A DNA stretch of 42,924 nt from Eubacteriaceae bacterium (GTDB lineage: Bacteria; Bacillota; Clostridia; Eubacteriales; Eubacteriaceae). Positions 301 through 38,428 of this stretch are shown here, one piece after another (position 1 is the stretch's first letter; every line of letters begins with the position of its first letter). The DNA is taken from positions 1 to 42,924 of the forward strand of contig JAQWCN010000003.1 in the NCBI GenBank assembly GCA_028705955.1, read 5' to 3'. Under the pieces are notes generated by a model that saw only the letters and a list, made by a program, of their open reading frames with translations, did not search any database and had not been told where the DNA came from. Position numbers and translations under genes: made by a program.

Positions 301-329
301 TTGTCAAAAAAAATGAACCGTGTTACTAT
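301..329 (+). promoter_or_regulatory. Promoter of the T-box leader
   Basis: TTGTCA (301-306) and TACTAT (324-329) with a 17-bp spacer. Predicted transcription start is near 336, just before the first strand of the T-box Stem I at 338. Confidence 0.7.
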
Positions 330-337
330 TTGTGAAA

Positions 338-610
338 GGCTTCGACCGAAAAAGAGTAAGTCTGTGTCGTTCTGACAGAGAGCTGCTGGCGGGTGAAAAG
401 CAGCGGGAACAATCGGGCCGAATACATTTCGAGAGCCGTGCACCGAACGCCACAGTAGGCTGCACCGGGAGCGCCCGTTATGGCGCAGGGGTATTCAAAA
501 ATCACAAAAGGATTTCGCGTACCCTGCGAGCGTCAGTCTGCGAGGTCTGGCGAAATTGAGGTGGTATCACGGGAATGCTCTCGTCCTCTTAACCGGAGGG
601 CGATTTTTTA
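338..610 (+). promoter_or_regulatory. T-box leader, apparent tyrosine (UAC) specifier
   Basis: A tRNA-sensing leader. Stem I base pairs GGCTTCGA (338-345) with TCGAGAGCC (429-437). The specifier loop has AGTA (355-358) opposite GAA (420-422), a loop-E type pair, followed by TAC (423-425) and the usual purine. Further up, GTCTG and GTTCT pair with CGGGC and GGGAAC; the apical hairpin GCTGCT/AGCAGC carries a GGTGAAA-type loop after AGAGAG. The T-box sequence AGGTGGTATCACGG (559-572) has UGGU, complementary to an ACCA tRNA end, as tyrosine tRNA has. The terminator TCGTCCT/AGGGCGA plus T6 is at 581-609. Expected behaviour: read-through into the transporter when uncharged tRNA-Tyr is abundant. The class is secure; the specifier is a manual fold. 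Confidence 0.88.
581..610 (+). terminator. T-box regulatory terminator
   Basis: TCGTCCT (581-587) pairs with AGGGCGA (597-603), followed by TTTTTT. The left arm lies directly 3' of the T-box sequence, so the antiterminator and terminator are mutually exclusive, as the T-box mechanism requires. Confidence 0.75.
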
Positions 611-661
611 TTGCCCGAAGGAAAAAATCTCAGGCTACGGCCTGATTCTCCGGGAGGTCTT

Positions 662-2200
662 ATGATTATTAAATTCTTATTGCTCTTTTTATTTTTCGGT
701 GTCATGCTGGGTGTTGGGTTTTATTGCCGGAAACACACAACCGATGTCAACGGCTTTGTCCTTGGCGGCCGGTCTGTCGGCCCATGGCTGACCGCCTTTT
801 CCTTTGGGACGTCTTACTTTTCCGCCGTTATTTTCGTGGGTTACGCAGGCCAGTTTGGCTGGAAGTATGGACTCGCCTCGACCTGGATCGGTCTGGGTAA
901 TGCACTGGTTGGCTCCATGCTCGCCTGGATCATTTTAGGCCGCCGCACCCGTATCATGACCCAATATTTTGATACTGCCACCATGCCGGAGTTTTTCGGT
1001 GAACGCTTTGGCAGCAAACAGCTTAAAATTGCAGCGTCCATTATTACTTTTATCTTCATGATTCCTTATACGGCTTCTTTATATAACGGTCTTTCCCGGC
1101 TTTTTGGCATGGCTTTTAATATTGACTATACGGTTTGCATTATCGTCATGGCTATTCTCACGGCTGTGTATGTCATCGCCGGCGGGTATATGGCTACCGC
1201 CATTAACGATTTTATTCAGGGAATTATTATGATTTTTGGGATCGCCGCTGTTGTCGTGACCGTTCTCGGAAATAATGGCGGGTTTACCGCAGCCATCAAT
1301 GCTCTGGCCCAGGTGTCCGATTCCACCGTCTCTTCCCAACCTGGTGTCTTTGCCTCTTTCTTTGGTCCGGATCCCCTCAATTTACTGGGTGTCATTATTC
1401 TGACTTCCCTCGGGACCTGGGGACTGCCACAAATGGTCGGCAAATTTTACGCCATTTCTGACGAGCACGCAATCAACAAAGGAATGGTCATTTCCACCTT
1501 ATTTGCCTTTATCGTTGCCGGTGGTTCCTATTTTCTCGGTGGGTTTGGCCGTCTTTACGCCGGGCAGATCAACATCAAAGCCGATGGGTTTGATTCCATT
1601 ATTCCTTCCATGCTCTCCGGACTTCCGGACATTTTGATTGGAATTGTGGTGATTCTGGTTCTCTCCGCCTCGATGTCCACTTTATCTTCTTTGGTCATGG
1701 CCTCCAGTTCAACCCTAACCCTGGATTTGATCAAAGACAACCTTATCAAAGGTATGGATGAAAAACATCAGGTCCTGGTGATCCGGATTTTAATTGTTGT
1801 TTTCATTCTGATTTCTGTCGTTCTGGCCATTATCCAGTACAAAAGTTCAGTCACCTTTATTGCTCAGCTGATGGGGATTTCCTGGGGTGCTATGGCCGGA
1901 TCATTCCTGGCTCCCTTCTTCTACGGACTGTATTCTAAAAAAGTTACCACCGCTTCTGTCTGGTTCTCCTTTATCTTCAGCACCGCTTTGATGGTTGCCA
2001 ACATGGCTTTTCGGACCGCTTTTCCCGCCTGGCTCCAGTCTCCCATTAATGCCGGGGCTTTTGCCATGGTCTTCACGCTGGTTCTCGTTCCCATTATCAG
2101 TCTCTTTACAAAGAAACCGGATCCCGCATTGATCAAGGACGCTTTCGCCGCTTACGACCGGACCGTCACCGTTCCAGTCAAAGATGATTTAGGCGAATAA
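662..2200 (+). CDS. Sodium:solute symporter (SSS family), candidate tyrosine/aromatic amino acid importer
   Basis: A 512-aa polytopic membrane protein with about 12-13 hydrophobic segments. The segment GGYMATAINDFIQG (about residues 178-191) matches the SSS/PutP family signature, and the early FGTSYFSAVIFVGYAG stretch fits the TM2 region. SSS proteins couple Na+ entry to uptake of proline, pantothenate, sugars or other organic solutes. I chose the ATG at 662 because GGGAGG sits just before it; an in-frame ATG at 611 lies inside the leader. The gene stands alone between the T-box leader and a strong terminator. The tyrosine assignment rests only on the leader's specifier codon, so the substrate is inferred. 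Confidence 0.85.
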   Translation: MIIKFLLLFLFFGVMLGVGFYCRKHTTDVNGFVLGGRSVGPWLTAFSFGTSYFSAVIFVGYAGQFGWKYGLASTWIGLGNALVGSMLAWIILGRRTRIMTQYFDTATMPEFFGERFGSKQLKIAASIITFIFMIPYTASLYNGLSRLFGMAFNIDYTVCIIVMAILTAVYVIAGGYMATAINDFIQGIIMIFGIAAVVVTVLGNNGGFTAAINALAQVSDSTVSSQPGVFASFFGPDPLNLLGVIILTSLGTWGLPQMVGKFYAISDEHAINKGMVISTLFAFIVAGGSYFLGGFGRLYAGQINIKADGFDSIIPSMLSGLPDILIGIVVILVLSASMSTLSSLVMASSSTLTLDLIKDNLIKGMDEKHQVLVIRILIVVFILISVVLAIIQYKSSVTFIAQLMGISWGAMAGSFLAPFFYGLYSKKVTTASVWFSFIFSTALMVANMAFRTAFPAWLQSPINAGAFAMVFTLVLVPIISLFTKKPDPALIKDAFAAYDRTVTVPVKDDLGE

Positions 2201-2218: not shown

Positions 2219-2260
2219 AAAAGACCCGCACACTTTTTCTGAAGTGTGCGGGTCTTTTAA
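2219..2260. terminator. Bidirectional intrinsic terminator
   Basis: AAAAGACCCGCACACTT and its complement AAGTGTGCGGGTCTTTT form a 17-bp arm pair around a 5-nt loop. A tract and T tract on either side let it serve both the symporter gene (plus) and the converging L,D-transpeptidase gene (minus). Confidence 0.9.
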
Positions 2261-2290: not shown

Positions 2291-4810
2291 TTACCGCACG
2301 TATACCGGCGTCCCTTCCGGGAAGATACTGTACAACTCTGCCATGGATTCAAGCGGCGTATTGACACAACCGTGGGAACCATCATAGAGGTAAATGTTGC
2401 CACCATACCCGCTGCTGCGCCAGGTCGAATCGTGAATTCCTATATCGTTGCCCACAAAAGGCATCCAGTAGTTGACGTAAGCCCGGTACCCGGGGCCAAC
2501 CAGATAAGATGGGCTTTCTTTACTATTGACGACAAAATCACCCCGGGGCGTATCCAGAGAATTGGCCATTCCTGTGACCACCGGTGTCATGACCACCCGC
2601 TGGTTATTGACATACCCTTCCAGTGTCTGACCGCCGATATCAATACAAATACAGGTATCAGACAAAGGCATCCAGCCAAAATCTTTCTGAATCACATGAA
2701 TATAATGGCTTTCTGTTGACCCCGGCGCCGCCGCACCTTTTCTGACGAGTTTGATGTTAATGGCTTCCATTTGCAGATTGCCGTCCGACGTGCCGGCCCA
2801 CTCGCCATTCTTGGCCCAGCCGAGCCAACCGTAATTTTGAACGTGGACTTGATAATAAATATCAAAAATTTGGGAAGCCTCTCCATTTAAAGCGATTTGG
2901 AATGCCTCCATGTGTTTGTGCTGACCGGTGGTCCCGGCCACCTGATTCTGGCCGACCCATCCCTGCCAGCCGATATCCTGGCAGTACGCCTGGTAAGATA
3001 CACTCGAACTTTGAGCAAGCATGCCTTCCAGTTTACACTGAATTGCTTCGACAGCCAAACCTTGTCCTACCGTTCCCGCTGTCACCCCATTTGCCCGGAA
3101 ACCCTGCCAGCCAATATTGGTAACATGGGTCTGATAAGCGATGTTGGAATGGCCGAGAAGATAATCTGCATTAATATACGGACGGTCCGTACTTCCCGGC
3201 GCCGCTTCCCCTTTAGGGACCAATTGAATTTCAATAGCTTCCATCTGGTACCCTAATTGAGAGGTTCCTGCGGATTCTCCATTCTTTGCCCAATCGAGCC
3301 AGCCATAATTTTGAACATGAGCCCGGTAATACACATCGTATTCTTTTGACAATGGCGAATCCAGTTTAATCTCAATGGCTTCCATTTGAAGGGCACGCCC
3401 CACCGTTCCACTGAGTTGTCCGTTATTTTTCCAACTTGTCCAGCCGATGTTTTGAATATGGGTCCGGTAAGAGATGCCTGTTCCCGCCGGTAAATTATCC
3501 GCTGTGGCTGAAATTTTAATGGCTTCCATTTGCTGGCCTTTTCCAACCGTCCCGGAAGTTTCACCGTCTTTAACGGCACTCTGCCACCCCACATTGCCAA
3601 CGTGACTTTGATACGAAACGGTTCCGTTTGTAAACATGGAAGGATCGATATGGGCCCGTGTCGTGGCTCCCGGGGCCTCTCCGCCCTTTGCCACAATTTG
3701 AATCTGAACCGCTTCTACACGGTATGCCAAATCCCGGGTCCCTGCTTCTTCGCCATTTTTTGCCCAATCCAGCCAACCGTAATTTTCAACATGAACTCTG
3801 TAATAAATATCAAAGAACTGGGCCTGATCGCCGGTCAGCTCCATTTTCACTGCTTCAGTCCGAAGTTTTTTTCCTTCGGTTCCGGCCATTTGCCCGTCCT
3901 TTACCGCACCTTGCCAGCCATAATTTTCAACATAAGCCTCATAGCTGATACCCAGGGCACTGGCTTCCTGTCCAGTGGAAATTTTAAGGGCTTCAACCCG
4001 TTCAGCTTTTCCGGTGGTTCCCGCAGTTTTACCCAGGGATACTGGTTTCATCCACCCTTCGTTTTCAACATGGGCCTGGTATGTAAAGGTCTTGTTAATG
4101 TCATCCAAAGACAAGGTCTGTTTTACATCGTTCACGGTAACCGTTTGGTCGGCGTTTAACCCATCGATTTTTGCCGTTATGGTTGTCGTTCCCGCAGCCA
4201 CTGCTGTTATTTTTCCATCCTGATCCACCGTTGCAACGGCCGGATCAGTGCTACTCCAGCTCACTGCGGTGCTGTCGTCAAAAAACGCCGGTTTGGATGC
4301 CAGACTGGCCTGACTGTTTTGACCAACCGCCAGGGATGCCGGATCAACCTTTACCGTAACGCCTTGTGTATTAACCGTTACGCCGTTTCCAGTGGCAAAG
4401 GTTTCCGCCGCACTGCCCGCATTGCAATAAAAGGTCACCGCGTTTTCCAAAACCGATGGGGATGGGGATGGCGTCGCACTGTCCTTTGGTGTCAATGCCC
4501 CGGCATCAATGGCTAAGACACTATCTGGAATCACGACGTTCTTGATAGAAGCTTCCCCCAGAGCTCCTGCTCCGATTCCGGTGACCGCATAATCCTGATT
4601 ATTGGCCGATATTTTTTCGGGAACCATCACGTTTTCGGTATTGCCGGCTGCCGTCAAACTGACCTGGCCGTCCTGGGTGACTGTGTACGTCAATCCCTCC
4701 ACACTGATTGTGTTGTTTTCTGTCTGATCCGCTGCCCAGACCGCACCGCCGCTAAATGTCAGCAGGCCAAAGACCAGTGTCAAAAGGATTGCCCATTTTT
4801 GATGTTTCAT
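2291..4810 (-). CDS. Secreted L,D-transpeptidase with Big2 and nine ChW repeats
   Basis: An 839-aa exported wall protein. Signal peptide 1-27 (cut after AVWA). Residues 36-105 resemble a BspA-type leucine-rich fragment. A bacterial Ig-like 2 domain spans about 152-227. Nine ChW repeats (about 242-690; core HVxNxGWxxWxxNGxxAGT) are arranged as three triads, each ending in a KGxxAPG linker. The YkuD catalytic domain is 703-839 with His793 and SHGCVN (Cys815). YkuD enzymes make 3-3 peptidoglycan cross-links or attach proteins to wall peptides; ChW repeats are thought to bind extracellular ligands. HGCVN rather than HGCIR suggests a clostridial YkuD subgroup. The start has a GGAGAGG site and an extended -10 TATAAT at 4851-4856. 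Confidence 0.92.
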   Translation of the reverse strand: MKHQKWAILLTLVFGLLTFSGGAVWAADQTENNTISVEGLTYTVTQDGQVSLTAAGNTENVMVPEKISANNQDYAVTGIGAGALGEASIKNVVIPDSVLAIDAGALTPKDSATPSPSPSVLENAVTFYCNAGSAAETFATGNGVTVNTQGVTVKVDPASLAVGQNSQASLASKPAFFDDSTAVSWSSTDPAVATVDQDGKITAVAAGTTTITAKIDGLNADQTVTVNDVKQTLSLDDINKTFTYQAHVENEGWMKPVSLGKTAGTTGKAERVEALKISTGQEASALGISYEAYVENYGWQGAVKDGQMAGTEGKKLRTEAVKMELTGDQAQFFDIYYRVHVENYGWLDWAKNGEEAGTRDLAYRVEAVQIQIVAKGGEAPGATTRAHIDPSMFTNGTVSYQSHVGNVGWQSAVKDGETSGTVGKGQQMEAIKISATADNLPAGTGISYRTHIQNIGWTSWKNNGQLSGTVGRALQMEAIEIKLDSPLSKEYDVYYRAHVQNYGWLDWAKNGESAGTSQLGYQMEAIEIQLVPKGEAAPGSTDRPYINADYLLGHSNIAYQTHVTNIGWQGFRANGVTAGTVGQGLAVEAIQCKLEGMLAQSSSVSYQAYCQDIGWQGWVGQNQVAGTTGQHKHMEAFQIALNGEASQIFDIYYQVHVQNYGWLGWAKNGEWAGTSDGNLQMEAINIKLVRKGAAAPGSTESHYIHVIQKDFGWMPLSDTCICIDIGGQTLEGYVNNQRVVMTPVVTGMANSLDTPRGDFVVNSKESPSYLVGPGYRAYVNYWMPFVGNDIGIHDSTWRSSGYGGNIYLYDGSHGCVNTPLESMAELYSIFPEGTPVYVR

Positions 4811-18381: not shown

Positions 18382-18966
18382 CTATTCCTGTCCTTTAAAC
18401 ATCATTTTTACTGTTGCCACCGGTACCGCGATCCCATGAACAATTGCCGTCCCGTTCTGCATGGCAATGTCCTTGCCAAATGCTTTCCCGCCCACTGTCA
18501 GACAGGCCACAGCCGCACTGGATGCCAAACTTAAAATGGAAGCATTCAGAAGTGGATAATGCGCCACCAATTGGGCTGCGATATTCACAACAATGGCCCC
18601 ACTGACAATACCGCAAATATCCCCAATGACATCATTACAAACATTGGAGACCCGGGGCGCATTTTTAACCAAATTTACAGCTGTTTTGGCGCCCTTGATC
18701 TTCTTGGCGGCCATCGCGTTAAACGGATCGATCGTCACCGACGCCACCGCTATCCCAATGATATCGGTAAAAATACCAAGGGCAATAATCACAAACAATA
18801 AAATAAGAGAAAACACCAAATTGGTATGGGTAAGCAGCGTATCTGAAATGTACGTAATGACAATTGTAGATAAAAAAGTGCCCACTGTAACCCAAATGAC
18901 CCAATGCTGATGTTTTTTCCCGTTGATTTCTTTTTTTGATAATTTTTTCTTTTGCTCGTCTTTCAA
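18382..18966 (-). CDS. oapA: OLE-associated membrane protein OapA
   Basis: A 194-aa membrane protein with about four hydrophobic segments after a short basic N-terminus. The centre has SNVCNDVIGDICGIVSG, giving the DxxxD pattern (DVIGD) that I recall from OapA proteins. It is identified mainly by location: it directly follows the OLE RNA and precedes tlyA, exactly as ole-oapA is placed in Bacillus halodurans relatives. OapA recruits OLE RNA to the membrane. Start: TTG at 18966, 5 bases past GGAGA; a TTG at 18978 would overlap that site. Similar proteins are sometimes labelled CorB-like. A hairpin terminator lies between the RNA and this gene. Confidence 0.85.
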   Translation of the reverse strand: MKDEQKKKLSKKEINGKKHQHWVIWVTVGTFLSTIVITYISDTLLTHTNLVFSLILLFVIIALGIFTDIIGIAVASVTIDPFNAMAAKKIKGAKTAVNLVKNAPRVSNVCNDVIGDICGIVSGAIVVNIAAQLVAHYPLLNASILSLASSAAVACLTVGGKAFGKDIAMQNGTAIVHGIAVPVATVKMMFKGQE

Positions 18967-18985
18967 ATTTTTCTCCAAAATAGTG

Positions 18986-19012
18986 AAAAAGGATTATGCC
19001 GCGCATAATCCT
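18986..19012 (-). terminator. Hairpin with T tract between OLE RNA and oapA
   Basis: Minus strand: AGGATTATGC pairs perfectly with GCATAATCCT across a 3-nt loop, followed by five T. It starts 5 bp past the OLE closing helix and ends 20 bp before the oapA start. It should define the RNA 3' end, with oapA made by read-through. Confidence 0.85.
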
Positions 19013-19017
19013 CGATA

Positions 19018-19642
19018 GGTGGTGATATAATGAGTAAACTTTGCGACATAGGTTCAGTAGGATTTCCCGGAATGTGACTGATGCGTCGCCGCTTCAGCGG
19101 TTTCCCTTTACACTTTCCCCACACTGTCACCAGACATGGGACTGAATTACCACTTAGTGTGCACTATAATCCCCATTACACCTCTTTCGAACAGCCTAGG
19201 GGTTTTCCCCGACGGCTCAAGCCGGTCCTTAGCCTCTTTTGCAATAAAGGTTTCGAACGCAATATTCCCAACGCACCGGGCCCTGGTTTACCGGGAACTG
19301 TCAGTCCATCTCCCCCCATCACTCAAGGCAGGCTACACTGGTTCAGAATTTTCGGGGCCACAATAGCCCTCAACTCATTCCCAGGTTTTCCCTGGAGCAC
19401 TGCGCAGCTTGTTGCGCAAAATACGCTGAATTGTTACACTGCTACACGTGGAATCCAGGTCTCCACGGAAGCAGGGTCGTCATCTGCATGCCGTTGCAGA
19501 TTGCCCCATCTTCCTTAACCCCCTGTCAATGCCCTCAACTGGGCGTCAAAGGCAGAAACAAGGGACTTCATCGATATGCCCTTCGACGGATTTTTAGGCC
19601 CGCCCTGGTGACCGGTCAAGCCGACTAGGATACTGCACCACC
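19018..19642 (-). ncRNA. ole: OLE RNA (ornate large extremophilic RNA)
   Basis: A structured noncoding RNA of about 625 nt. The 5' end GGTGGTG (19642-19636) pairs with CACCACC (19024-19018), giving the closing helix. Internal hairpins include CCGC-TGAA-GCGG (near 19091-19102), CAGG-GAAAA-CCTG (near 19381-19395) and GGGG-AAAA-CCCC (near 19198-19211). It has its own promoter (19652-19680) and a 3' hairpin. Size (OLE is about 600 nt), dense structure, no credible coding frame, and position before oapA-tlyA-nadK-argR-recN all match OLE. Known role: with OapA it forms a membrane-bound ribonucleoprotein needed for resistance to short-chain alcohols and cold. The assignment is by structure and context; no covariance model was run. 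Confidence 0.9.
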
Positions 19643-19651
19643 TTTAAAATA

Positions 19652-19680
19652 ATTATAACACCAATGCATCCCAACCACAA
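19652..19680 (-). promoter_or_regulatory. Promoter of OLE RNA
   Basis: Minus strand: TTGTGG (19680-19675), 17-bp spacer, TATAAT (19657-19652). Predicted start near 19645, 3 bases before the first base of the closing helix. Confidence 0.75.
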
Positions 19681-28627: not shown

Positions 28628-30769
28628 CTAATCATCCAGATTAATCGAAAAATCCGCATGCATTTTAGTCAAGTTTGGATTATAAAATGGGTCATTTTTA
28701 ATGTATTTCAACCATTTATCCTGAAGCATTTTGATTTCCCTGGCAAAGCGTTCCCGTTTTTCCGGATTATCTTCGTATCCTCTGGATTTGGATTCAAAAT
28801 GATACAATTCTGCCTCAGCAACCCAAACATTATAACGCCCTGATTCATAGAGTTTTATACATAAATCCACATCGTTATACGCCACGGTAAATTCTTCCGT
28901 GAAGCCGCCAACCCGTTCAAAATCGGCACGTTTGACCATTAAGCACGCTCCAGTAACCGCCAGGTAGTTGGTTGCACTGACCAGTTTTCCAAAATATCCG
29001 TTTGAATGGCGCGGAAAATTATAATGAATATGTCCGGCTGCTCCGCCCATACCTAAAACGACTCCTGCATGCTGAATGGTTTCATCCAAATAATACAGCT
29101 TTGCTCCCACAGCTCCAACGTGTTCTAACTGTGCATACCCCAGCATGCGTTCCATCCAAACATCCGCAATCACTTCTGTGTCATTATTTAAAAACAACAG
29201 GATATCCCCCTGCGCTTCTTTTACCGCCAGATTATTGATCCGGGCATAATTAAAGGGGATGTCAATCCGGACAACTTTAATTTTATCCGGATAGTTTTTC
29301 GTATATGCGGCAAACAGATCCAGCGTTTCCTGTTTTTCACTGCCATTGTCGGCAATGATAATTTCATAGTGCGGATAGGTTGTTTTCTTCAAAATTGAAT
29401 CCACGCAGGTCTTAACATCTTCCGCCCCATCCCGCGTTGGAATAATAATGGAAACGAGATGTTTCTCCGTGATCGCATAATGAATATTATAAAGACCCGG
29501 GAATGCGCCATCAACGACATCCCCCTTTAAGCCACGGCGCTGAAGTGCGTCTGCCAGAGCCTTTTTCCCCGCCTGATAAGCGTACCCTTTGGAATCCACA
29601 TTTTGAGCCGTTGACGATTTTAATAAACGCCAGTGATACAAAATTTTGGGAATATGGCCAATTTTTTCTGTGAGCTCTGTCGTTCTCAAAAGCAGGTCAT
29701 GGTCCTGGGCCCCTTCATATCCAGCCCGCAGTCCACCCACCTGATCGATCAAAGCCTTCCGGTAAACGCAAAGATGACAAATATAATTGCCTGACATCAA
29801 TGAATCGGGTGCCCAGTCACTTTTAAAATACGGATTTTGACGCTTATCATTGGTGTCTATTTTATCTTCATCGCTGTAGAGAATATCCCAGCGTTCCTCT
29901 TTATTGAGTGCATTGACCACTTCACTTAAGGCATTGGGAGCCAATGTATCATCATTATCCAAAAATGTAACGTATTCCCCCGTTGCAAGCGCCAGAGCAG
30001 AGTTGGAAGCTTTGGAAATATGCCCATTTTCTTCCCTGAAAACCACTTTGATACGATCATCTGCATTTTGTATCGCCTCAAGATCTTGTTTAACCGATTT
30101 GAGTGTCGAACAATCATCAGCGATGCACAATTCCCAATTCGAATAATATTGATCTTTAACGGATTGAACACATGCGTTCAACCATTTTGACTCGACATTA
30201 TACACGGGAAGAATAATTGAAATTTTGGGTTGATACCCATTCTTTGCCAGTTGATTGTCATAATCCTCTTTTGTCAGCGTTTCATTGCGCTTCATCCATT
30301 CCTGATACTGGGCATTTTTTTCCTGATAAACGTGTTTGATTTTTTTTGCCGTTTCAAGAATACCGTGTTTTTGTATGTATTTATATCCCTTTTGAAACAT
30401 GATAAACGCTTTTTGTCTGGGATTGTTTTTTTCCATCGCATGACAATAAGCTTTTTTCATATTCAGTTTTAATTTCTTTTGAATCTCACCATTTCTAAAT
30501 ACAATGGTAACCGTATTGGTAAAAGACCTTAAACGGATCAGAATATAAAACCCGCAATTGACTTTAACCGGAAACTGGTACGTCGCATTCACGTCTCCCC
30601 GGTATTCCTGTTCGATCTTCACAGATTCAATTTCAGGATTTGATAGAATCTTAACTTCCAATGCTTCTTTTTGGGCCGTATCAATGCCCCATCCCTGAAC
30701 GATCAGCAGACCATCCTCTTTTTTTCTTTCAATAGCGTCAATAATGACCATTAAACGACTGTTAGACAT
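28628..30769 (-). CDS. Bifunctional-type tandem family 2 glycosyltransferase
   Basis: 713 aa with three parts. Residues 1-110: a beta-rich module with VQGWGID. Residues 182-400: first GT2 domain (ISIILPVYNVE, metal motif LDNDD 270-274, HW at 379-380). Residues 439-700: second GT2 domain (VSIIIPTRDG, LFLNND 525-530, NDVDLC near 632). Both active sites look intact, so it may add two sugars or make two linkages. dTDP-rhamnose is the likely donor, inferred from the neighbouring rml genes. RBS GGGGG precedes the ATG, 11 bp after the paralogue upstream. Confidence 0.87.
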   Translation of the reverse strand: MSNSRLMVIIDAIERKKEDGLLIVQGWGIDTAQKEALEVKILSNPEIESVKIEQEYRGDVNATYQFPVKVNCGFYILIRLRSFTNTVTIVFRNGEIQKKLKLNMKKAYCHAMEKNNPRQKAFIMFQKGYKYIQKHGILETAKKIKHVYQEKNAQYQEWMKRNETLTKEDYDNQLAKNGYQPKISIILPVYNVESKWLNACVQSVKDQYYSNWELCIADDCSTLKSVKQDLEAIQNADDRIKVVFREENGHISKASNSALALATGEYVTFLDNDDTLAPNALSEVVNALNKEERWDILYSDEDKIDTNDKRQNPYFKSDWAPDSLMSGNYICHLCVYRKALIDQVGGLRAGYEGAQDHDLLLRTTELTEKIGHIPKILYHWRLLKSSTAQNVDSKGYAYQAGKKALADALQRRGLKGDVVDGAFPGLYNIHYAITEKHLVSIIIPTRDGAEDVKTCVDSILKKTTYPHYEIIIADNGSEKQETLDLFAAYTKNYPDKIKVVRIDIPFNYARINNLAVKEAQGDILLFLNNDTEVIADVWMERMLGYAQLEHVGAVGAKLYYLDETIQHAGVVLGMGGAAGHIHYNFPRHSNGYFGKLVSATNYLAVTGACLMVKRADFERVGGFTEEFTVAYNDVDLCIKLYESGRYNVWVAEAELYHFESKSRGYEDNPEKRERFAREIKMLQDKWLKYIKNDPFYNPNLTKMHADFSINLDD

Positions 30770-30780
30770 TCTCTACCCCC

Positions 30781-32895
30781 TTATTTTATTTCCAGAAAAT
30801 GGATCAAATTCGGATTATAATACGAATCATTCCATAAGGATTCTTCATATTTCAAAAAGATACGGTTGGATAATCGGCGTCTTCCATATTTTGCAGAGAC
30901 TGTACTTTCGAAAACCGCATGGGGAGTCCAAACAACAGCTTTTCCCTCTTTGCGACACCGCATACAGAGATCGATTGACAACTCACAACCGTTCAGGTTC
31001 TCATCAAAACCGCCCCATTGTTTCCAATCTGAAACACGCATCATCAAACCGTTCAAACGCACAGCAAATACATTCTGGGATAGAATCAAGCGGAAATAGT
31101 AACCCAATTCTTCACATTGATAACCGTTGTGCACATCGAATACTTGCTTTTTATCCGGAATGGTACTCATCCCGGCCGATAAAACAACATCCTTTTTCTT
31201 GATTTTACTTCCAGCGATCGCCACCTGGGGATCCACCAACTCGTTACAATAGGCATCGACCCACGTCTCTTTTTCCGGTAATGTTTCACCGTCCCAAAAC
31301 CAAATCAAACAATCCGGATCCACATGCTCAATCGCTTGATTCACAGCGGACGGTTCAAACGAATCAGAATCCATCCGATCTATTTTTATTTCCGCCCCAG
31401 TGATATTTTTATATTTTCCCGGTAACAGAAACTGCAGCCGGGCTCCCTGGGTTTGAAGACACAGGGTTTTAATCGCTTGATCCAAAAGGGGTTCAGACCG
31501 TTTGTCCTGGCAAAGCACCACGCAAACCTTTTTTTCCTGTTTGATCTCATAATGAATATCATACATCCCATAATGAGGTGCTAATTCAACTTTTCCTGAA
31601 AGATTCCGACGTTGCAGCGCTTCATCCAATGCTTTTTCCCCGGCAAGATAAGCATACATTTTAGCCTCCGGATTGGATGCTGTTGACCCTTCAATGGTCC
31701 GCCAATGGTAGAGAATCCTGGGAATATGAACGATACACCGGGCCTTTTCCGTCGCTCTCAAAACAAAATCATAATCCTGAGCCCCATTCATTGCACTGCG
31801 CAGTAAACCCGCCTGTTCCTGAAGGCATTTTTTCACAACGACAAAATGCGTAATATAATTATGTGCCAACAACAGTTTGGGATTCCAATCCGGTTTAAAG
31901 AACGCATCAAAACGGTGTCCGTAAATATCCATCTTATCTTCATCGCTGTACAGGAAATCCGCCTGGGGATTTTTGTTAATGGCTTTTACATTTTCATATA
32001 AAGCAAAGGGTGGCAATTCATCGTCATTATCCATAAAGGCGATAAAATCGCCAGTAGCCATTTTAATTGCCGTGTTCGTCGCTTCAGAAATATGACCATT
32101 TTCTTTTCGATAAACAACCTTTATTCTTTGATCCTTTGCCACATAGGCATCGATAACCGGTTTAATATGAGGAGCCGGTGAATGATCATCTGCAAGACAA
32201 AGCTCCCAGTTAGGATAATACTGTCCAAGGACAGACTCAATGAAACCTCTGAGCCATTTTTCCTCCACGTTATAAACCGGGACGACAATCGAAATAACCG
32301 GCTGCAATTTAAAAGCAGCAATTTCTTCAAACACCGCAGCCAGATCATAATCTTCGTGCGTATGGATCCAGGAAACATAACGATCAGGATTTTTAAGCTG
32401 CAATGATAAGCGGGTTGCAGAAAGTGCTTCTGTAAGGGAATTTTCTTTCTTAATTAACTTAAAATTTCGATTAATTTCCGACAAATACTGTTTTTGACTG
32501 TAAATTCGAACGGGATAACTGATTTCATCCTGGGTTTTCAACAAACACCAAAGCTGATTGATTTTTACATTAGGTTTATACTTTAAAACGACTTGAAAAC
32601 CAACAGCAGATCCCTTTTCCAGATTCAATTTTTTTTCGATATCCGGACGGTCAACCGGCCGAAAATAAACTTTTTTAACCTGTCTGTTCAAAAAACAAAG
32701 TTGAAGAGGCTCTTTTGAATTTGAAGAGATGCCCCAGCCATTGATCACACATTGATGATCCTTTTCCTGAATAAATAAAGCATCAATTTGATATAAAAAA
32801 ATGTTTGCCTTTTTATTCAATTTTCCCCTGATATGTTCAAGTATCAAGGATGTATCAGAATAGTCTTCATTGATTACAACCGCATTATTATTCAT
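30781..32895 (-). CDS. Family 2 glycosyltransferase, paralogue with degenerate second domain
   Basis: 704 aa, the same three-part layout as the next gene: beta-rich module with INGWGIS (30-145), GT2 domain at about 200-400 (ISIVVPVYNVE, MDNDDE 288-293), and a second GT-like domain at about 456-690. In that second domain the metal motif reads WFWDGET (532-538) instead of the paralogue's FLNNDTE, and the start motif is VCVVLCQDK, so it is probably non-catalytic or altered. Its ATG overlaps the stop of the methyltransferase/kinase gene by four bases (ATGA), implying coupled expression. Confidence 0.85.
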   Translation of the reverse strand: MNNNAVVINEDYSDTSLILEHIRGKLNKKANIFLYQIDALFIQEKDHQCVINGWGISSNSKEPLQLCFLNRQVKKVYFRPVDRPDIEKKLNLEKGSAVGFQVVLKYKPNVKINQLWCLLKTQDEISYPVRIYSQKQYLSEINRNFKLIKKENSLTEALSATRLSLQLKNPDRYVSWIHTHEDYDLAAVFEEIAAFKLQPVISIVVPVYNVEEKWLRGFIESVLGQYYPNWELCLADDHSPAPHIKPVIDAYVAKDQRIKVVYRKENGHISEATNTAIKMATGDFIAFMDNDDELPPFALYENVKAINKNPQADFLYSDEDKMDIYGHRFDAFFKPDWNPKLLLAHNYITHFVVVKKCLQEQAGLLRSAMNGAQDYDFVLRATEKARCIVHIPRILYHWRTIEGSTASNPEAKMYAYLAGEKALDEALQRRNLSGKVELAPHYGMYDIHYEIKQEKKVCVVLCQDKRSEPLLDQAIKTLCLQTQGARLQFLLPGKYKNITGAEIKIDRMDSDSFEPSAVNQAIEHVDPDCLIWFWDGETLPEKETWVDAYCNELVDPQVAIAGSKIKKKDVVLSAGMSTIPDKKQVFDVHNGYQCEELGYYFRLILSQNVFAVRLNGLMMRVSDWKQWGGFDENLNGCELSIDLCMRCRKEGKAVVWTPHAVFESTVSAKYGRRRLSNRIFLKYEESLWNDSYYNPNLIHFLEIK

Positions 32896-35129
32896 TCATG
32901 ATCCTTTTTGAGTTTGTCCATTCCCTTACGTAATGGCTTTGATAATTTCCAAACCGTACTATTTTTTATCTCATCCAATGTTCTTTGGGTCTGCGCATAG
33001 CGGCGCTGCCATTTTTGTGCCATGTCCTTTGATTGGCCCAGCACCTGTCTGGCCGTTTGTAATTGTTGATGATACCCTTCGATTCGTTGAGCTGGTGTAA
33101 TTTTTTGAAGGGATCCCTTAATTCCAATCCTATGATTGGTCTTTTTTAAATTTTTAAAAAGAATTTGAGGATCTTTTTCAGGAAAATGCCATTCTCCATC
33201 TCCCAAGTAAAGCCCATTCGACTCAAGTCCCGTAAATTGTTTACCATCCAGCGTACATTTTAAGTCTGTAATCGTACAAGGATAAGCACAGGGATCAAAC
33301 CGCAACGTTTCGATCGGGACCTGCCATTTTTTTCTCAATGCATCCAATGATATTTTAATTTCGAAGGTATTTTGTGTTACATAATCCGAAAGGATTTGTT
33401 TTCTGGCTTCTGTAAAACCCGTCCCGTCATCGCCATATAATTCAGCCTCATACGGTTCATCACTGAGAAAATCAGTCAACATTCCATTTTCATTATAAGT
33501 CTTTTTTAAATAACGACTTGTTTGATTATCCCCTGCCACATATTGTTGTCCAAAATGATAATCCCATTTTAAAAAGGCCTGATGATCTTCTTCTGAAATG
33601 TCTCCTTTCATTAAAAACGTTTTGAAATCATAAAATTTTTCAATTTCCGGATTATGAATAAAGAAATAAAATAACGATCGCCAGGTGATAAATTTAACTG
33701 GAACCGCAAAATCAAAAACCCACTCATAATCAATGATCCAATAATGCCTGTCCGCCTCGTCATAGAAAATATTGCCTAAAATATAATCGATATTCGTATT
33801 CTTCTTACATAACGCCGGCGCATTGAAGGGATCCTCACCAAAAACGTTTATAAAACCCGGATCATCCCCATAGCGTATCATTTCACCATTCTGGCCGATA
33901 AAAGCCAGCAACTGATCCAATCTCTCATCAAATTGTTTCTGATTTCCCTGATCAATGTATGTTTTCAGCATTTCTTCCAACGTTGGAAGCTGCAAATACG
34001 GCATTGTAATACTCTGATCCTTTTCCACAACTGTTAAATGACGAAAAAGCTGATTCTCTGTCTTTAATCCGCTTTTTATCATCTTCTTTAAATGGGGCCA
34101 GGCCTTTTCTGTCAGCGGTTTTTTTTCAACCCGCCATTTTCCTTCTTCACTGGAGATTATGGTTGAAATTTGGAATTCATTCCGGCGTTTATTACTGTAT
34201 TTAACGTATTTTAGATCGGATTCGGCTTTTGGGAGCGCATTGCATCCCACTTCAACAATGAAAGAATTGGCAAAACGGTCCAGTATTTTTTCGTGCTGCA
34301 GCGTATCGATCATTTTGTTTTCATCGAAAAAAACCAAGCGGTCGTGATTATAACCAGAAATACTATTCCCATAGTTATAGCCCATGGTGTTGATCGTTTC
34401 ATCTGTCAAAATGGTATCCGGAAATTTGTAATCCGGAAAGGGGTAGTAAAAGCGATAGTGATCATATCCGCTTTTTTCTAAAAGGGATTGAAGTTCACTT
34501 TTGGAAAAGGTTTTGACGAAATCAACCCCCGGGTATTCATTAAGCCCACTAAAAAGTGCACTGGTATGATCCTCAACCACGCCATTAAAATATTTCAAAC
34601 CCAGCCGGTTTTCGATTGCAATTAATAAGACCCCCTGAGGTGCCAACAAACTTCTGATCTTTTGCAAAAAAGAACAATAGGGATCTTCCCCTTCTGTAAA
34701 GCTTCCGGCATATTCCAAAACACCGTTAAGCACAATCATATCAAAGGGTTTATCAAAAACCATATTGTTAAAATTTCCTGTCAGCAACTCCAGGTTATCA
34801 CACGATTGATTGCGTTGAAAGTTGATAGCGCTGCGTCTTTTCGTCAATTCAACGGCTGTGACCGTCTTAACCTTTTTGCAAAATAACCCGGTCAGAGCGC
34901 CACATCCTGCTCCAATTTCCAACAAACTGCTTTCAGGATTAAAGGGATACCAACTCAAAACATTTTGGCGCAGCGGGCTGAGATGATAAAACATCGCCCA
35001 TCGATCATCCTCTTTTAAGATGTCATTGGGCTGTTTGCCGGATTTTAACAGTTCGAGGATTTCTGTTTCAATATCGCCATCCGAATAGCCATCCTCATCC
35101 TGGTAAAAATCCAAATTCCATTTTGCCAT
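32892..35129 (-). CDS. Fused methyltransferase / kinase-like / coiled-coil protein, WbdD-like chain terminator candidate
   Basis: 745 aa (positions below count four residues more, from the upstream ATG). Residues 50-230: class I SAM methyltransferase, LLEIGAGCGALTG (73-85) and VLNGVLEYAG. Residues 310-520: protein-kinase-like fold, with WRVEKK (Lys340/341), IDYILGN (Asp452, Asn457 of the catalytic loop) and IIDYEW (469-474) in the DFG place; the usual catalytic-loop His is absent. Residues 590-680: beta-rich region. Residues 683-727: coiled coil, then STVWKLSKPLR. In E. coli O9a, WbdD joins a kinase, a methyltransferase and a coiled coil to cap the O-antigen and fix its length. The adjacent Wzt has a matching binding domain. 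Start chosen at 35129 because GGGAGA precedes it. Confidence 0.82.
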   Translation of the reverse strand: MAKWNLDFYQDEDGYSDGDIETEILELLKSGKQPNDILKEDDRWAMFYHLSPLRQNVLSWYPFNPESSLLEIGAGCGALTGLFCKKVKTVTAVELTKRRSAINFQRNQSCDNLELLTGNFNNMVFDKPFDMIVLNGVLEYAGSFTEGEDPYCSFLQKIRSLLAPQGVLLIAIENRLGLKYFNGVVEDHTSALFSGLNEYPGVDFVKTFSKSELQSLLEKSGYDHYRFYYPFPDYKFPDTILTDETINTMGYNYGNSISGYNHDRLVFFDENKMIDTLQHEKILDRFANSFIVEVGCNALPKAESDLKYVKYSNKRRNEFQISTIISSEEGKWRVEKKPLTEKAWPHLKKMIKSGLKTENQLFRHLTVVEKDQSITMPYLQLPTLEEMLKTYIDQGNQKQFDERLDQLLAFIGQNGEMIRYGDDPGFINVFGEDPFNAPALCKKNTNIDYILGNIFYDEADRHYWIIDYEWVFDFAVPVKFITWRSLFYFFIHNPEIEKFYDFKTFLMKGDISEEDHQAFLKWDYHFGQQYVAGDNQTSRYLKKTYNENGMLTDFLSDEPYEAELYGDDGTGFTEARKQILSDYVTQNTFEIKISLDALRKKWQVPIETLRFDPCAYPCTITDLKCTLDGKQFTGLESNGLYLGDGEWHFPEKDPQILFKNLKKTNHRIGIKGSLQKITPAQRIEGYHQQLQTARQVLGQSKDMAQKWQRRYAQTQRTLDEIKNSTVWKLSKPLRKGMDKLKKDHE

Positions 35130-35140
35130 AATATCTCCCA

Positions 35141-36424
35141 TTATTTTTTTTCTATCGCTATTTTAGCATCCATATCAAAAAATCCAACCGTGTCTTTCGC
35201 AGAAATCACATTGAGATCAACAATATCATAAAAACGATGATAGACGACAAAATTCCCATCAAGACCAATCCCGGTACACCCCAGGGAAATGAAATAATCC
35301 CCGCTCTGGAATAAAATCTTTTGCTTAAAGGAGATTTCATATTCGTCCCCCGGCTGGGCAATAAAGCCATCCAACCCTTCATACATATTATTGGTTCCTG
35401 TGATTTCTGTCCCTTTAATGTCTTTAAAGGACAGGGCGAAAATCGGATCGTGAATCTCTTCATTGAAATGAACGGTAAACCGGATATCAATCGTTTTGAA
35501 TTTTTCAATGCGTTCACAGGGTTTGCCTTCTTGATCCAATAGATTGACTTCGATAATTTCAGCTTGTTTCGTTCCGTAATCAATAATATTTTCGCTGAGG
35601 GGAATATTGCTCTTTAATTTCCCTTTTTCCAGTAATTCTTTTCCCGTTTCCTTATCTTCACTCTTGGTTTCCTGATCAACAAGAATTTTTTTATATAAAT
35701 CCACCATATCTCTTGCCGATCCGATATCGATTTGTTTACCTTCGTTGAGAACCATCACACGATCGCAATACTTGATCACTGAGCTCAAATCATGCGTTAC
35801 AAAAACGATGGTTTTGCCTCTTTTTTTAAAATCCATAAATTTCTTATAGCATTTTAATTGAAAGAAAGCATCCCCAACACTCAAGGCTTCATCAACAATT
35901 AAAATTTCTGGTTCAACATTGATCGCCAGGGCAAAAGCCAACCGAACAAACATCCCGGAAGAATAGGTTTTAACCGGCTGGTAGATATGATCGCCGATAT
36001 CAGCAAACTCCACAATTTCTGGTAAGCGTTGATCCATTTCCTCTTTGGTGTAGCCCATAATATCACCATTTAGGTAGATATTTTCAATGCCGGTATATTC
36101 CTGATTAAAACCAGCTCCGAGTTCAAGCAGCGCTGAAATCCGGCCATCAATTTGCATTTCACCCTCTGTTTTTGACAGAACCCCGGTGATAATTTTTAAA
36201 AGCGTTGATTTTCCGGAACCATTTTTTCCAATAATTCCAAAACATTCTCCTTCATTTACACTGAAAGAGATATCTCTCAATGCATAAAAATCCGAATGGT
36301 ATTTTTTCCGCGTGATTGAAAAAGCTTCTTTCATGCGATCCTTCGGTTTTTTATACATACTATAGACTTTCGTCATATGGTCTATATTTATGATGGTTTT
36401 TTTTGTCGTTATTCCTTCATCCAT
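35141..36424 (-). CDS. wzt: Polysaccharide ABC exporter ATPase with C-terminal glycan-binding domain (Wzt)
   Basis: 427 aa. ATPase domain 10-245: Walker A GKNGSGKST (66-74), LELGAGFN, signature YSSGM (154-158), Walker B ILIVDEALSVGD (174-185), and THDLSS. Residues about 285-427 form a beta-sandwich extension of the Wzt_C type (IEVNLLDQEG, then GDYFISLGCTGIG). In O9a and related systems this part binds the capped, non-reducing end and licenses export. Simple teichoic-acid exporters (TagH) lack this type of domain. RBS AGAGGATCATGT precedes the ATG. It follows wzm by 14 bp. Confidence 0.92.
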   Translation of the reverse strand: MDEGITTKKTIINIDHMTKVYSMYKKPKDRMKEAFSITRKKYHSDFYALRDISFSVNEGECFGIIGKNGSGKSTLLKIITGVLSKTEGEMQIDGRISALLELGAGFNQEYTGIENIYLNGDIMGYTKEEMDQRLPEIVEFADIGDHIYQPVKTYSSGMFVRLAFALAINVEPEILIVDEALSVGDAFFQLKCYKKFMDFKKRGKTIVFVTHDLSSVIKYCDRVMVLNEGKQIDIGSARDMVDLYKKILVDQETKSEDKETGKELLEKGKLKSNIPLSENIIDYGTKQAEIIEVNLLDQEGKPCERIEKFKTIDIRFTVHFNEEIHDPIFALSFKDIKGTEITGTNNMYEGLDGFIAQPGDEYEISFKQKILFQSGDYFISLGCTGIGLDGNFVVYHRFYDIVDLNVISAKDTVGFFDMDAKIAIEKK

Positions 36425-36438
36425 ACATGATCCTCTTT

Positions 36439-37245
36439 CTATAATACATCTGAAAAATGCGGACGCATTTTAGTGTAAATCAATGAGCCCACAATCAACA
36501 AAGCGATCGACACAGCCCAAAAATACAGTGTCATTTTACCATACTGCCAGAACCAGCCTGTTCCAAAGAAAGAATCCCGGTATCCCTGAACAATATAAAA
36601 TAAGGGATTGAGTTTAAACATAAAATGGAATTTTGCCGGAAATGTATTTATGCTCCACAAAATCGGGCTGCCCCACATCAAAACCTGTAAGATAATATTA
36701 ATGAGCGGGGAAATATCTGAAAAAAATGGCTGGATGGAAGAGGAGATCCAAGTGATTCCTGTAACCAATACAACCATACAAAAAAGATAATAAATCAGCT
36801 GCAACGTATGGAGTCCCGGATAAAACCCATAGATCGCTGTCAAAATCAATGCGATCCCGATAAAAAAGAAATGGGTATATAAATTCGATAATAATTTGGC
36901 AGTTGGTAAAATACGAATATTAAAGACAACTTTTTTAACCAAATAACTGTAATCCCTAAAACAATTGGTGGCTGTCAAAACTGTGTCCGAAAAAAAGAAC
37001 CACGCAATGATCCCGGTAACCAGAAAGCAAATAAATGGAATGGATCCATCGGTCATCCCCGCTTTCAAACCCTTTTCAAAGACAAACCAATATACAACAA
37101 TCGTTACAAATGGCGTAAAAAATGCCCAAAAAACACCAAAAAATGAACCGGCATACCGCGCTTTAAAATCATTTTTTGAAAAACGTATTAAAAGCTTTCG
37201 ATTTAGCCACAAGTCTTTAAAAAATGAATAAAAATCTTTAAACAT
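36439..37245 (-). CDS. wzm: Polysaccharide ABC exporter permease (Wzm)
   Basis: 268 aa with six hydrophobic segments; ABC-2 type. The N-terminus FKDLWLNRKLLIRFSKNDFKARYAGS is the typical amphipathic lead-in, and NPLFYIVQGYR near the C-terminus is typical of Wzm/TagG. It pairs with Wzt to move a lipid-linked polymer across the membrane. The ATG at 37245 is chosen because AAAGGATTAGG precedes it; a longer frame from 37287 adds 14 unlikely residues. Confidence 0.93.
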   Translation of the reverse strand: MFKDFYSFFKDLWLNRKLLIRFSKNDFKARYAGSFFGVFWAFFTPFVTIVVYWFVFEKGLKAGMTDGSIPFICFLVTGIIAWFFFSDTVLTATNCFRDYSYLVKKVVFNIRILPTAKLLSNLYTHFFFIGIALILTAIYGFYPGLHTLQLIYYLFCMVVLVTGITWISSSIQPFFSDISPLINIILQVLMWGSPILWSINTFPAKFHFMFKLNPLFYIVQGYRDSFFGTGWFWQYGKMTLYFWAVSIALLIVGSLIYTKMRPHFSDVL

Positions 37246-37270
37246 CCTAATCCTTTCATAAAAACAAAAC

Positions 37271-37311
37271 CACCGCTGCCTTCCCAAACAATCGGTCAGT
37301 CAGCGGCAGTC
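37271..37311 (-). terminator. Weak hairpin between rmlB and wzm
   Basis: Minus strand: CCGCTG and CAGCGG pair across a loop of about 20 nt, followed by TGGTTTTGTTTT. It could partly reduce transcription from the rml genes into the exporter. Weak stem. Confidence 0.4.
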
Positions 37312-37318
37312 TGAACTA

Positions 37319-38428
37319 TTATTTTTTCTTTGAATACATTTTTTCGTAGTATTCCTGATAACCACCGGATTCGACCTGAGCAACCCATTTTTGGTTTTTC
37401 AAATACCATTCAATGGTTTCTTCAATGCCCTTTTCAAAGGTATAGGAAGGGCTCCATCCCAATTCCGTCGTAATTTTCGTGTTGTCGATGGCGTAGCGGC
37501 GATCATGACCCAATCTGTCTTCAACATGTATTTTTAACGCATCGCTGATCTTTGACGTGTCTGTTGCAATGCCATCATAATTGTCTTTTTCCAATTTTTC
37601 TTTAACGAATTTCAAAATCAAATCGACAATATGAATATTGGCCTTTTCATTATTGCCGCCAATATTATACACTTCCCGCAGACGTCCTTTATGCAAAACG
37701 GTGTCAATCCCGCTGCAGTGATCTTTGACGTGCAGCCAATCCCGAACCTGCATGCCATCACCGTAAATGGGCAATTCCCTTAAGTCAATCACGTTGGAAA
37801 TCATGAGTGGAATCAATTTTTCCGGGAACTGATACGGCCCGTAGTTGTTGGAACAACGGGTAATGTTCATCGGAAATTTAAAGGTATTCCCATACGCTCT
37901 GACCAGTAAATCCGCACTGGCTTTAGAAGCCGAATATGGACTGTTGGGCTGAATGGGTGTTGTTTCTGTAAACATCCCTGTTTTACCTAAAGCGCCGTAC
38001 ACTTCATCGGTAGAAACCTGAAGGTATTTTACATTTTCTTTATACGTCGGGTATCCTTCGTCATCTTTGCCCGTTTGCCAGGCATTTTTCGCCGCGGCCA
38101 GAAGCACCTGGGTTCCCATAATATTGGTTTTCACAAAAATCTGGGGGTTTTCAATACTCCGGTCCACATGAGATTCAGCGGCAAAGTTTACCACAAAATC
38201 AAACGTATAATCCTTAAACAACTGATTGACAAAATCAGAATCCGAAATATCCCCTTTGACAAAAACATAATTGGGATTATCTTCGATATCGGTCAAGTTT
38301 TCAAGATTTCCTGCGTAAGTTAAAGCATCTAAATTAACGATCAGATAATCCGGATGTTTTTCCAACATGTATTTCACAAAATTTGAACCAATAAATCCCG
38401 CTCCGCCAGTGACTAGTACAGTTTTCAA
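37319..38428 (-). CDS. rmlB: dTDP-glucose 4,6-dehydratase
   Basis: 369 aa. Second step of dTDP-L-rhamnose synthesis. NAD-binding TGGAGFIGSN at the N-terminus, STDEVYG, catalytic YSASKASADLLV and DRRYAID near the C-terminus. Start TTG with GGGGAGAAACACA before it. 37 aa longer than some RmlB proteins, mostly through an insert near 110-125 and the C-terminus. Confidence 0.95.
   Translation of the reverse strand: MKTVLVTGGAGFIGSNFVKYMLEKHPDYLIVNLDALTYAGNLENLTDIEDNPNYVFVKGDISDSDFVNQLFKDYTFDFVVNFAAESHVDRSIENPQIFVKTNIMGTQVLLAAAKNAWQTGKDDEGYPTYKENVKYLQVSTDEVYGALGKTGMFTETTPIQPNSPYSASKASADLLVRAYGNTFKFPMNITRCSNNYGPYQFPEKLIPLMISNVIDLRELPIYGDGMQVRDWLHVKDHCSGIDTVLHKGRLREVYNIGGNNEKANIHIVDLILKFVKEKLEKDNYDGIATDTSKISDALKIHVEDRLGHDRRYAIDNTKITTELGWSPSYTFEKGIEETIEWYLKNQKWVAQVESGGYQEYYEKMYSKKK

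Follow-up and report, generated by a model that had tools for sequence, protein, structure and literature searches.

Leader and symporter gene at the start of the contig

The window analyzed here is the whole stretch of 42,924 bases that makes up contig C70 of a 2.01-Mb assembly (87.65% complete). Near its beginning, a full-length T-box leader precedes a gene for a sodium:solute symporter (SSS) (Table 1). The leader matches all of model RF00230 (positions 1-219 of 219) in a cmscan search, with a score of 107.8 bits against a gathering threshold of 93 (E = 4.8e-23). The original prediction, made from the letters alone, had described a T-box controlling a sodium:solute symporter at 338-2200 and proposed Infernal with the T-box model as a check; that search and the Pfam match of the gene product both agree with it, except that the leader begins five bases earlier than was proposed. 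Upstream, a consensus scan, which is a weak kind of evidence, places a promoter-like pair of hexamers at a fitting distance from the leader.

Table 1 Features of the T-box leader and the symporter gene, in window coordinates
Feature	Position	Strand	Basis
Promoter-like pair TTGTCA-17-TACTAT, TG preceding the second hexamer	301..329 (301-306/324-329)	+	Consensus scan only
T-box leader RNA (RF00230)	333..591	+	cmscan; covariation in 34 leaders
Lower Stem I helix closing the specifier loop	347..431 (347-351/427-431)	+	Read from sequence; Rfam alignment
Specifier UAC (tyrosine)	423..425	+	Sequence reading; UAC in 38/38 orthologous leaders
Antiterminator with T-box bulge UGGU (562-565)	558..588	+	Sequence reading; UGGU in 38/38 leaders
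Intrinsic terminator, stem 581-603 and U6 604-609	581..609	+	Hairpin scan of sequence
Shine-Dalgarno-like GGGAGG	652..657	+	Sequence
SSS-family symporter, 512 aa, start ATG 662	662..2200	+	PF00474, 184.6 bits; AlphaFold model
Terminator-like hairpin behind the gene, 18-bp stem	2219..2258	+	Hairpin scan of sequence

In the lower Stem I helix, CGAAA pairs with UUUCG, closing a specifier loop with the seven bases AAGAGUA (352-358, with AGUA at 355-358) on the 5' side and GAA-UAC-A (420-426) on the 3' side. Under the TBDB rule (PMC7778990), the specifier consists of nucleotides 2-4 counted upstream from where the specifier bulge ends; because this rule picks UAC, we read the triplet as a tyrosine specifier, as had been proposed. 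The antiterminator, with arms GAGG (558-561) and CCUC (585-588), overlaps the terminator, and both lie ahead of the gene. The source genome's own tRNA-Tyr has the anticodon GUA and the 3' end A-CCA and fits both contacts, GUA with UAC and ACCA with UGGU, the latter being the complementarity that the original prediction had pointed out. By analogy with the T-box family, the leader would attenuate transcription by reading tRNA-Tyr: binding of the uncharged tRNA through both contacts would favor the antiterminator and transcription of the symporter gene, and with charged tRNA-Tyr the terminator would form.

On its own, the leader sequence has an unremarkable folding energy (z = -0.98; 35 of 200 shuffles are as good), which was dropped as evidence. 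That the leader exceeds chance follows instead from the covariance-model score and the alignment of orthologues: in the 34 of 38 leaders that were aligned, 27 of the 37 RNAalifold consensus pairs show at least one double-sided compensatory change.

As a control for specifier reading, the 10 other T-boxes of the source genome were read by eye with the same rule, the genes behind them being named by eye from their translations. Nine specifiers agree with the gene that follows: CUG for LeuA, AUG for MetRS, ACC for ThrRS, GCC for AlaRS, AUC for IleRS and IlvC, and UGG for TrpE (twice) and TrpD. The tenth T-box, located ahead of a gene for phenylacetate-CoA ligase (PaaK), reads UUC (Phe). Many T-boxes were misread by an automatic caller that used complementarity of the helix, and all specifier calls used here are manual.

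Conservation of the tyrosine specifier

Orthologous symporters were detected in 21 of 61 genomes comprising the source genome and its relatives (E <= 1e-60) and in 62 of 291 genomes sampled evenly across the class (E <= 1e-150). Sixty of these 62, taken with flanks and leaving out the source genome and G008, are referred to as class loci; a further set of 80 contig loci came to 79 after removal of one duplicate, with 75 assessable. By cmscan, a T-box lies ahead of the symporter gene at 8 of 15 loci in one set and 5 of 11 in another. A T-box core occurs within 400 bases upstream of the gene at 28 of the 60 class loci, confirmed by cmscan in all 14 tested, and 32 are without a T-box; cmscan of two loci that had no core found no T-box there. 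Leaders were also present at 4 of the 75 assessable contig loci and 5 of 12 loci from relatives.

Together with the window, this yields 38 leaders (28 class, 4 contig, 5 relatives', and the window's own), which are not independent, several being near-copies (genus g40). All 38 carry UAC and all 38 carry UGGU; UAC directly follows (G)AA in 34 of them, including the window leader. The original prediction had envisaged that orthologues might carry a different specifier or that another triplet might occupy the specifier place; neither was observed, and no competing triplet is common to all 38 leaders. A misread specifier, with the leader sensing some other tRNA, is very improbable and was rejected on this alignment: one extra U in four leaders (GAAUUAC in L070, L105, L106, and L237) would permit UUA by distance from GAA, and L249 and L262 require a G-A mismatch at the first pair of the lower helix, but UAC comes straight after (G)AA in 34 leaders, the window's included, lies as far from the lower helix in the four with the extra U as in the rest, and is matched, along with UGGU, by the organism's own tRNA-Tyr. 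On a tree of 85 symporters, presence of the T-box changes 12 times, at least 8 of these changes being forced by well-supported branches; thus, through repeated gain and loss of the leader, UAC either persisted or came back.

The symporter

The symporter matches PF00474 (TC 2.A.21) over profile positions 1-397 of 406. The AlphaFold model (pLDDT 82.4, pTM 0.85) aligns with SiaT (5nva; Z-score = 34.9, rmsd 3.2 over 454 residues) and CHT1 (8j74; Z-score = 35.1, rmsd 3.3 over 465 residues), and the predicted structure has the SSS fold. The hairpin behind the gene suggests a monocistronic unit.

Among curated families, the proline symporter PutP (TIGR02121) is nearest by score, with 189.5 bits against a cut-off of 515.5, so a proline symporter identity was rejected. 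The window protein shares fold and superfamily with PutP but is only 28% identical to it, in addition to scoring far under the cut-off. ActP-type models score low (43 bits). PaaL-type permeases, which import phenylacetate, are SSS members like the window symporter. The counterparts of PutP Ser340/Thr341, which we take to be Na+-site residues, are Ser339/Thr340 in all 35 aligned orthologues, and the position of PutP Asp55, presumably essential in that protein, is occupied by Tyr52 in the same 35. Such a pocket argument, drawn from an alignment, is suggestive only.

Linkage to arylacetate genes

We searched symporter neighborhoods for a group of genes denoted arylacetate genes, namely those for an AMP-forming acyl-CoA ligase (AL; PF00501/PF13193), IorA, IorB, PaaK, and the ACT-pair protein. 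At least one of these lies within 8 kb of the symporter at 38 of the 60 class loci (AL at 29, IorA at 25, IorB at 23, PaaK at 20, and ACT at 15), compared with 1 of 20 control regions, each 17.5 kb long and taken from other parts of 20 of these genomes, the single positive containing PaaK and ACT and neither AL nor Ior genes. With flanks of up to 3 kb, at least one arylacetate gene was found at 36 of the 79 contig loci. An Amidohydro_2 protein (PF04909) is also encoded near the symporter at 28 of the 79 contig loci (L081, L088, L101, and others) and at 4 of the 60 class loci.

AL is located downstream on the same strand at half of the T-box-bearing class loci (14 of 28), within 210 bases in 13 cases. 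At six loci (L242, L243, L248, L257, L260, and L263), AL is followed by iorA-iorB, and two of these, L257 and L263, run on into PaaK and ACT. Given this same-strand order, a single tyrosine T-box precedes symporter, ligase, and oxidoreductase in what are therefore predicted operons.

Linkage is weak within the family of the window: PaaK and ACT lie near the symporter at one of the 12 loci from relatives (in G060), and the other 11 have no arylacetate gene nearby. Arylacetate genes are absent beside the window symporter, whose neighbors (a ChW/YkuD protein, an amino-acid-type binding protein, and two-component genes) were uninformative as a substrate clue. The first of these (2291-4810, minus strand) is an 839-aa protein with nine ChW repeats, a Big_2 domain, and a YkuD L,D-transpeptidase domain.

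T-boxes upstream of candidate arylacetate ligases

AL genes located away from the symporter can themselves follow a T-box: a core with the UAC motif lies upstream at 5 of 36 AL loci (L331, L332, L343, L350, and L354). Among six AL loci searched by cmscan, L331 and L332 were confirmed, and the other three calls (L343, L350, and L354) rest on the motif. By eye, the L331 leader region of G060 (1096-1501) has two tandem copies of the antiterminator core AGGTGGTAACACG ahead of the AL gene, both with a terminator-like hairpin behind them.

Phenylalanine T-boxes (UUC) precede PaaK followed by ACT in G008, G015, G055, and G060. In the source genome, a UUC T-box (L001, G000:C131:6107-6361) stands before the gene for a PaaK-type ligase, inside which the contig ends. 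A second PaaK-like ligase is found behind UGG (Trp) T-boxes in G005 (L182) and G021 (L218) and is a candidate indoleacetate-CoA ligase. Inspection by eye also turned up T-boxes before genes for TrpX/ABC binding-protein-like lipoproteins in G005 (L177), G008 (L196), G060 (L217), and G015 (L228).

Co-occurrence across genomes

AL is encoded in 45 of the 62 genomes with the symporter versus 64 of the 229 without it (Fisher p = 2e-10, kinship ignored); for full-length IorA the corresponding counts are 55 of 62 and 140 of 229 (p = 1e-5, kinship likewise ignored). A PaaK-like ligase was present in all 23 symporter genomes tested, and an IorA match in all 17 symporter genomes that have no AL, the match in the source genome being partial and at a contig end. 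Full-length IorA is missing from seven of the 62; the source genome and G116 have partial or split matches, and an IorA piece adjoins the symporter in G289 (L286), which leaves G142, G185, G257, and G271 as exceptions. Presence of IorA or PaaK was rejected as a discriminator because both are too common (IorA in 195 of 291 genomes), which leaves linkage and shared regulation as the evidence that counts. AL was not found in the source genome or in most of its relatives (6 of the 61 genomes have it), and the source organism encodes a TyrA candidate.

Predicted substrate and role

Since the symporter is linked to genes that lead from arylacetates to arylpyruvates, and since AL and PaaK themselves sit under tyrosine and phenylalanine T-boxes, the cargo is more likely a precursor of tyrosine than tyrosine itself. 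We propose, with a probability of roughly 60%, that the symporter is a Na+-coupled importer of 4-hydroxyphenylacetate, or of arylacetates, controlled by a tRNA-Tyr T-box. It would bring in the aryl acid, chiefly 4-hydroxyphenylacetate, with Na+; the CoA ligase would activate it; the indolepyruvate:ferredoxin oxidoreductase IorAB would reductively carboxylate the aryl-CoA to 4-hydroxyphenylpyruvate; and transamination would yield tyrosine. The switch would thus govern precursor uptake within a T-box-controlled regulon leading from arylacetates to aromatic amino acids, of which the symporter (Tyr) and a PaaK (Phe) are seen in the source genome. The original prediction is upheld as to the T-box, its specifier for tyrosine, and the SSS gene; its further step from a tyrosine specifier to a tyrosine transporter is not, as the recurrent linkage with arylacetate genes points to a precursor.

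PMC13285125 describes activity of ligases and kinases toward 4-hydroxyphenylacetate and argues that AMP-forming arylacetate ligases beside indolepyruvate oxidoreductase favor biosynthesis. A biosynthetic direction would fit the leader, because T-boxes activate their genes during a shortage of the amino acid. For the same reason, and because the ligases are AMP-forming and the degradative route is reported to use a kinase/phosphotransferase system (PMC13285125), degradation in the form of Stickland oxidation of tyrosine was ranked low.

Several points speak against a precursor as the cargo: linkage is weak and AL scarce in the window's own family, 32 class loci have no T-box, and seven symporter genomes have no full-length IorA; with its TyrA candidate, the source organism need not salvage tyrosine; and the usual cargo of a transporter under T-box control is the very amino acid that the T-box senses. 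Import of tyrosine, raised on starvation and with the linked ligase and IorAB as a parallel tyrosine source, is the leading alternative, which we consider unlikely overall. It agrees with UAC in all 38 leaders, with PutP as the nearest curated family, with G055, which has the T-box and the symporter and no TyrA match, and with the cognate cargo normal for T-box transporters, for tyrosine those of the NhaC and NSS families (PMC2494555). Plain tyrosine importers would not, however, be expected in recurrent operons with AL and iorAB, and the presumably essential aspartate of PutP is replaced by tyrosine throughout the aligned orthologues. Direct tyrosine uptake is a possibility above all for the family of the window, in which AL went undetected in most genomes and a TyrA candidate is encoded.

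We give less credence still to import of some other tyrosine-related compound (an arylpyruvate, a phenylpropionoid acid, or an aromatic dipeptide) or to unselective import of several aromatic acids. SSS members, among them the solved relatives matched by the model, differ widely in substrate, and the Amidohydro_2 neighbor has no place in the arylacetate scheme, but the pair of ligase and IorAB fits arylacetates directly and no gene for an alternative route recurs in the neighbor clusters.

Extending the arylacetate reading to the whole subfamily, we see about even chances that these SSS proteins are Na+:4-hydroxyphenylacetate (arylacetate) symporters forming the uptake arm of a T-box regulon in the class, with tRNA-Tyr, tRNA-Phe, and tRNA-Trp each turning on a separate set of genes for aryl-acid activation.

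Relation to known systems

T-boxes, tyrosine T-boxes on transporter genes, and arylacetate salvage are each already known. For arylacetate salvage, we are aware of neither a regulator nor an uptake gene that has been assigned; older tracer work dealt with phenylalanine formation from phenylacetate in rumen cultures. Known tyrosine T-box leaders (of tyrS and of NhaC and NSS transporter genes) share Stem I, UAC, UGGU, and the terminator/antiterminator switch with the window leader, whereas the gene controlled here encodes an SSS symporter. Tyrosine T-boxes ahead of transporters are described in PMC2494555, which tabulates the T-box transporter families ABC, APC, DAACS, LIVCS, MFS, NhaC, and NSS and in whose text "SSS" is absent.

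In Methanococcus maripaludis, aryl acids feed a second route to aromatic amino acids via indolepyruvate oxidoreductase (PMC4162585), and rumen cultures reportedly convert phenylacetate to phenylalanine (PMC7356843). The scheme proposed here resembles this route in the conversion of an aryl acid to an aryl-CoA and its carboxylation by IorAB; it differs in that a dedicated SSS symporter and tyrosine, phenylalanine, and tryptophan T-boxes accompany the genes. The words "T-box" and "transporter" are both absent from the text of PMC13285125. A literature search returned no paper tying a T-box to an SSS symporter or to arylacetate genes; earlier surveys or TBDB may list such leaders.

These findings delineate a testable transporter subfamily, represented in 62 of the 291 class genomes, and a candidate 4-hydroxyphenylacetate-CoA ligase. 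If the scheme holds, anaerobes would use scavenged products of fermentation to rebuild the three aromatic amino acids, with one tRNA sensor for each, the three sensors would keep the branches to tyrosine, phenylalanine, and tryptophan apart, and cross-feeding on 4-hydroxyphenylacetate and indoleacetate would be explained. As a caution for annotation, the specifier of a T-box identifies the amino acid in short supply, which need not be the molecule carried.

Other features of the window

On the minus strand, the window contains a complete OLE RNA (RF01071) at 19003-19657 (442.2 bits, E = 9.8e-127 by cmscan). Directly downstream, a 198-aa open reading frame (18382-18978, minus strand) without a Pfam match could encode an OLE-associated protein. 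Farther along, a cell-surface polysaccharide cluster (28628-38428, minus strand) encodes glycosyltransferases, a Wzt-type ABC ATPase, and a GDP-mannose dehydratase.
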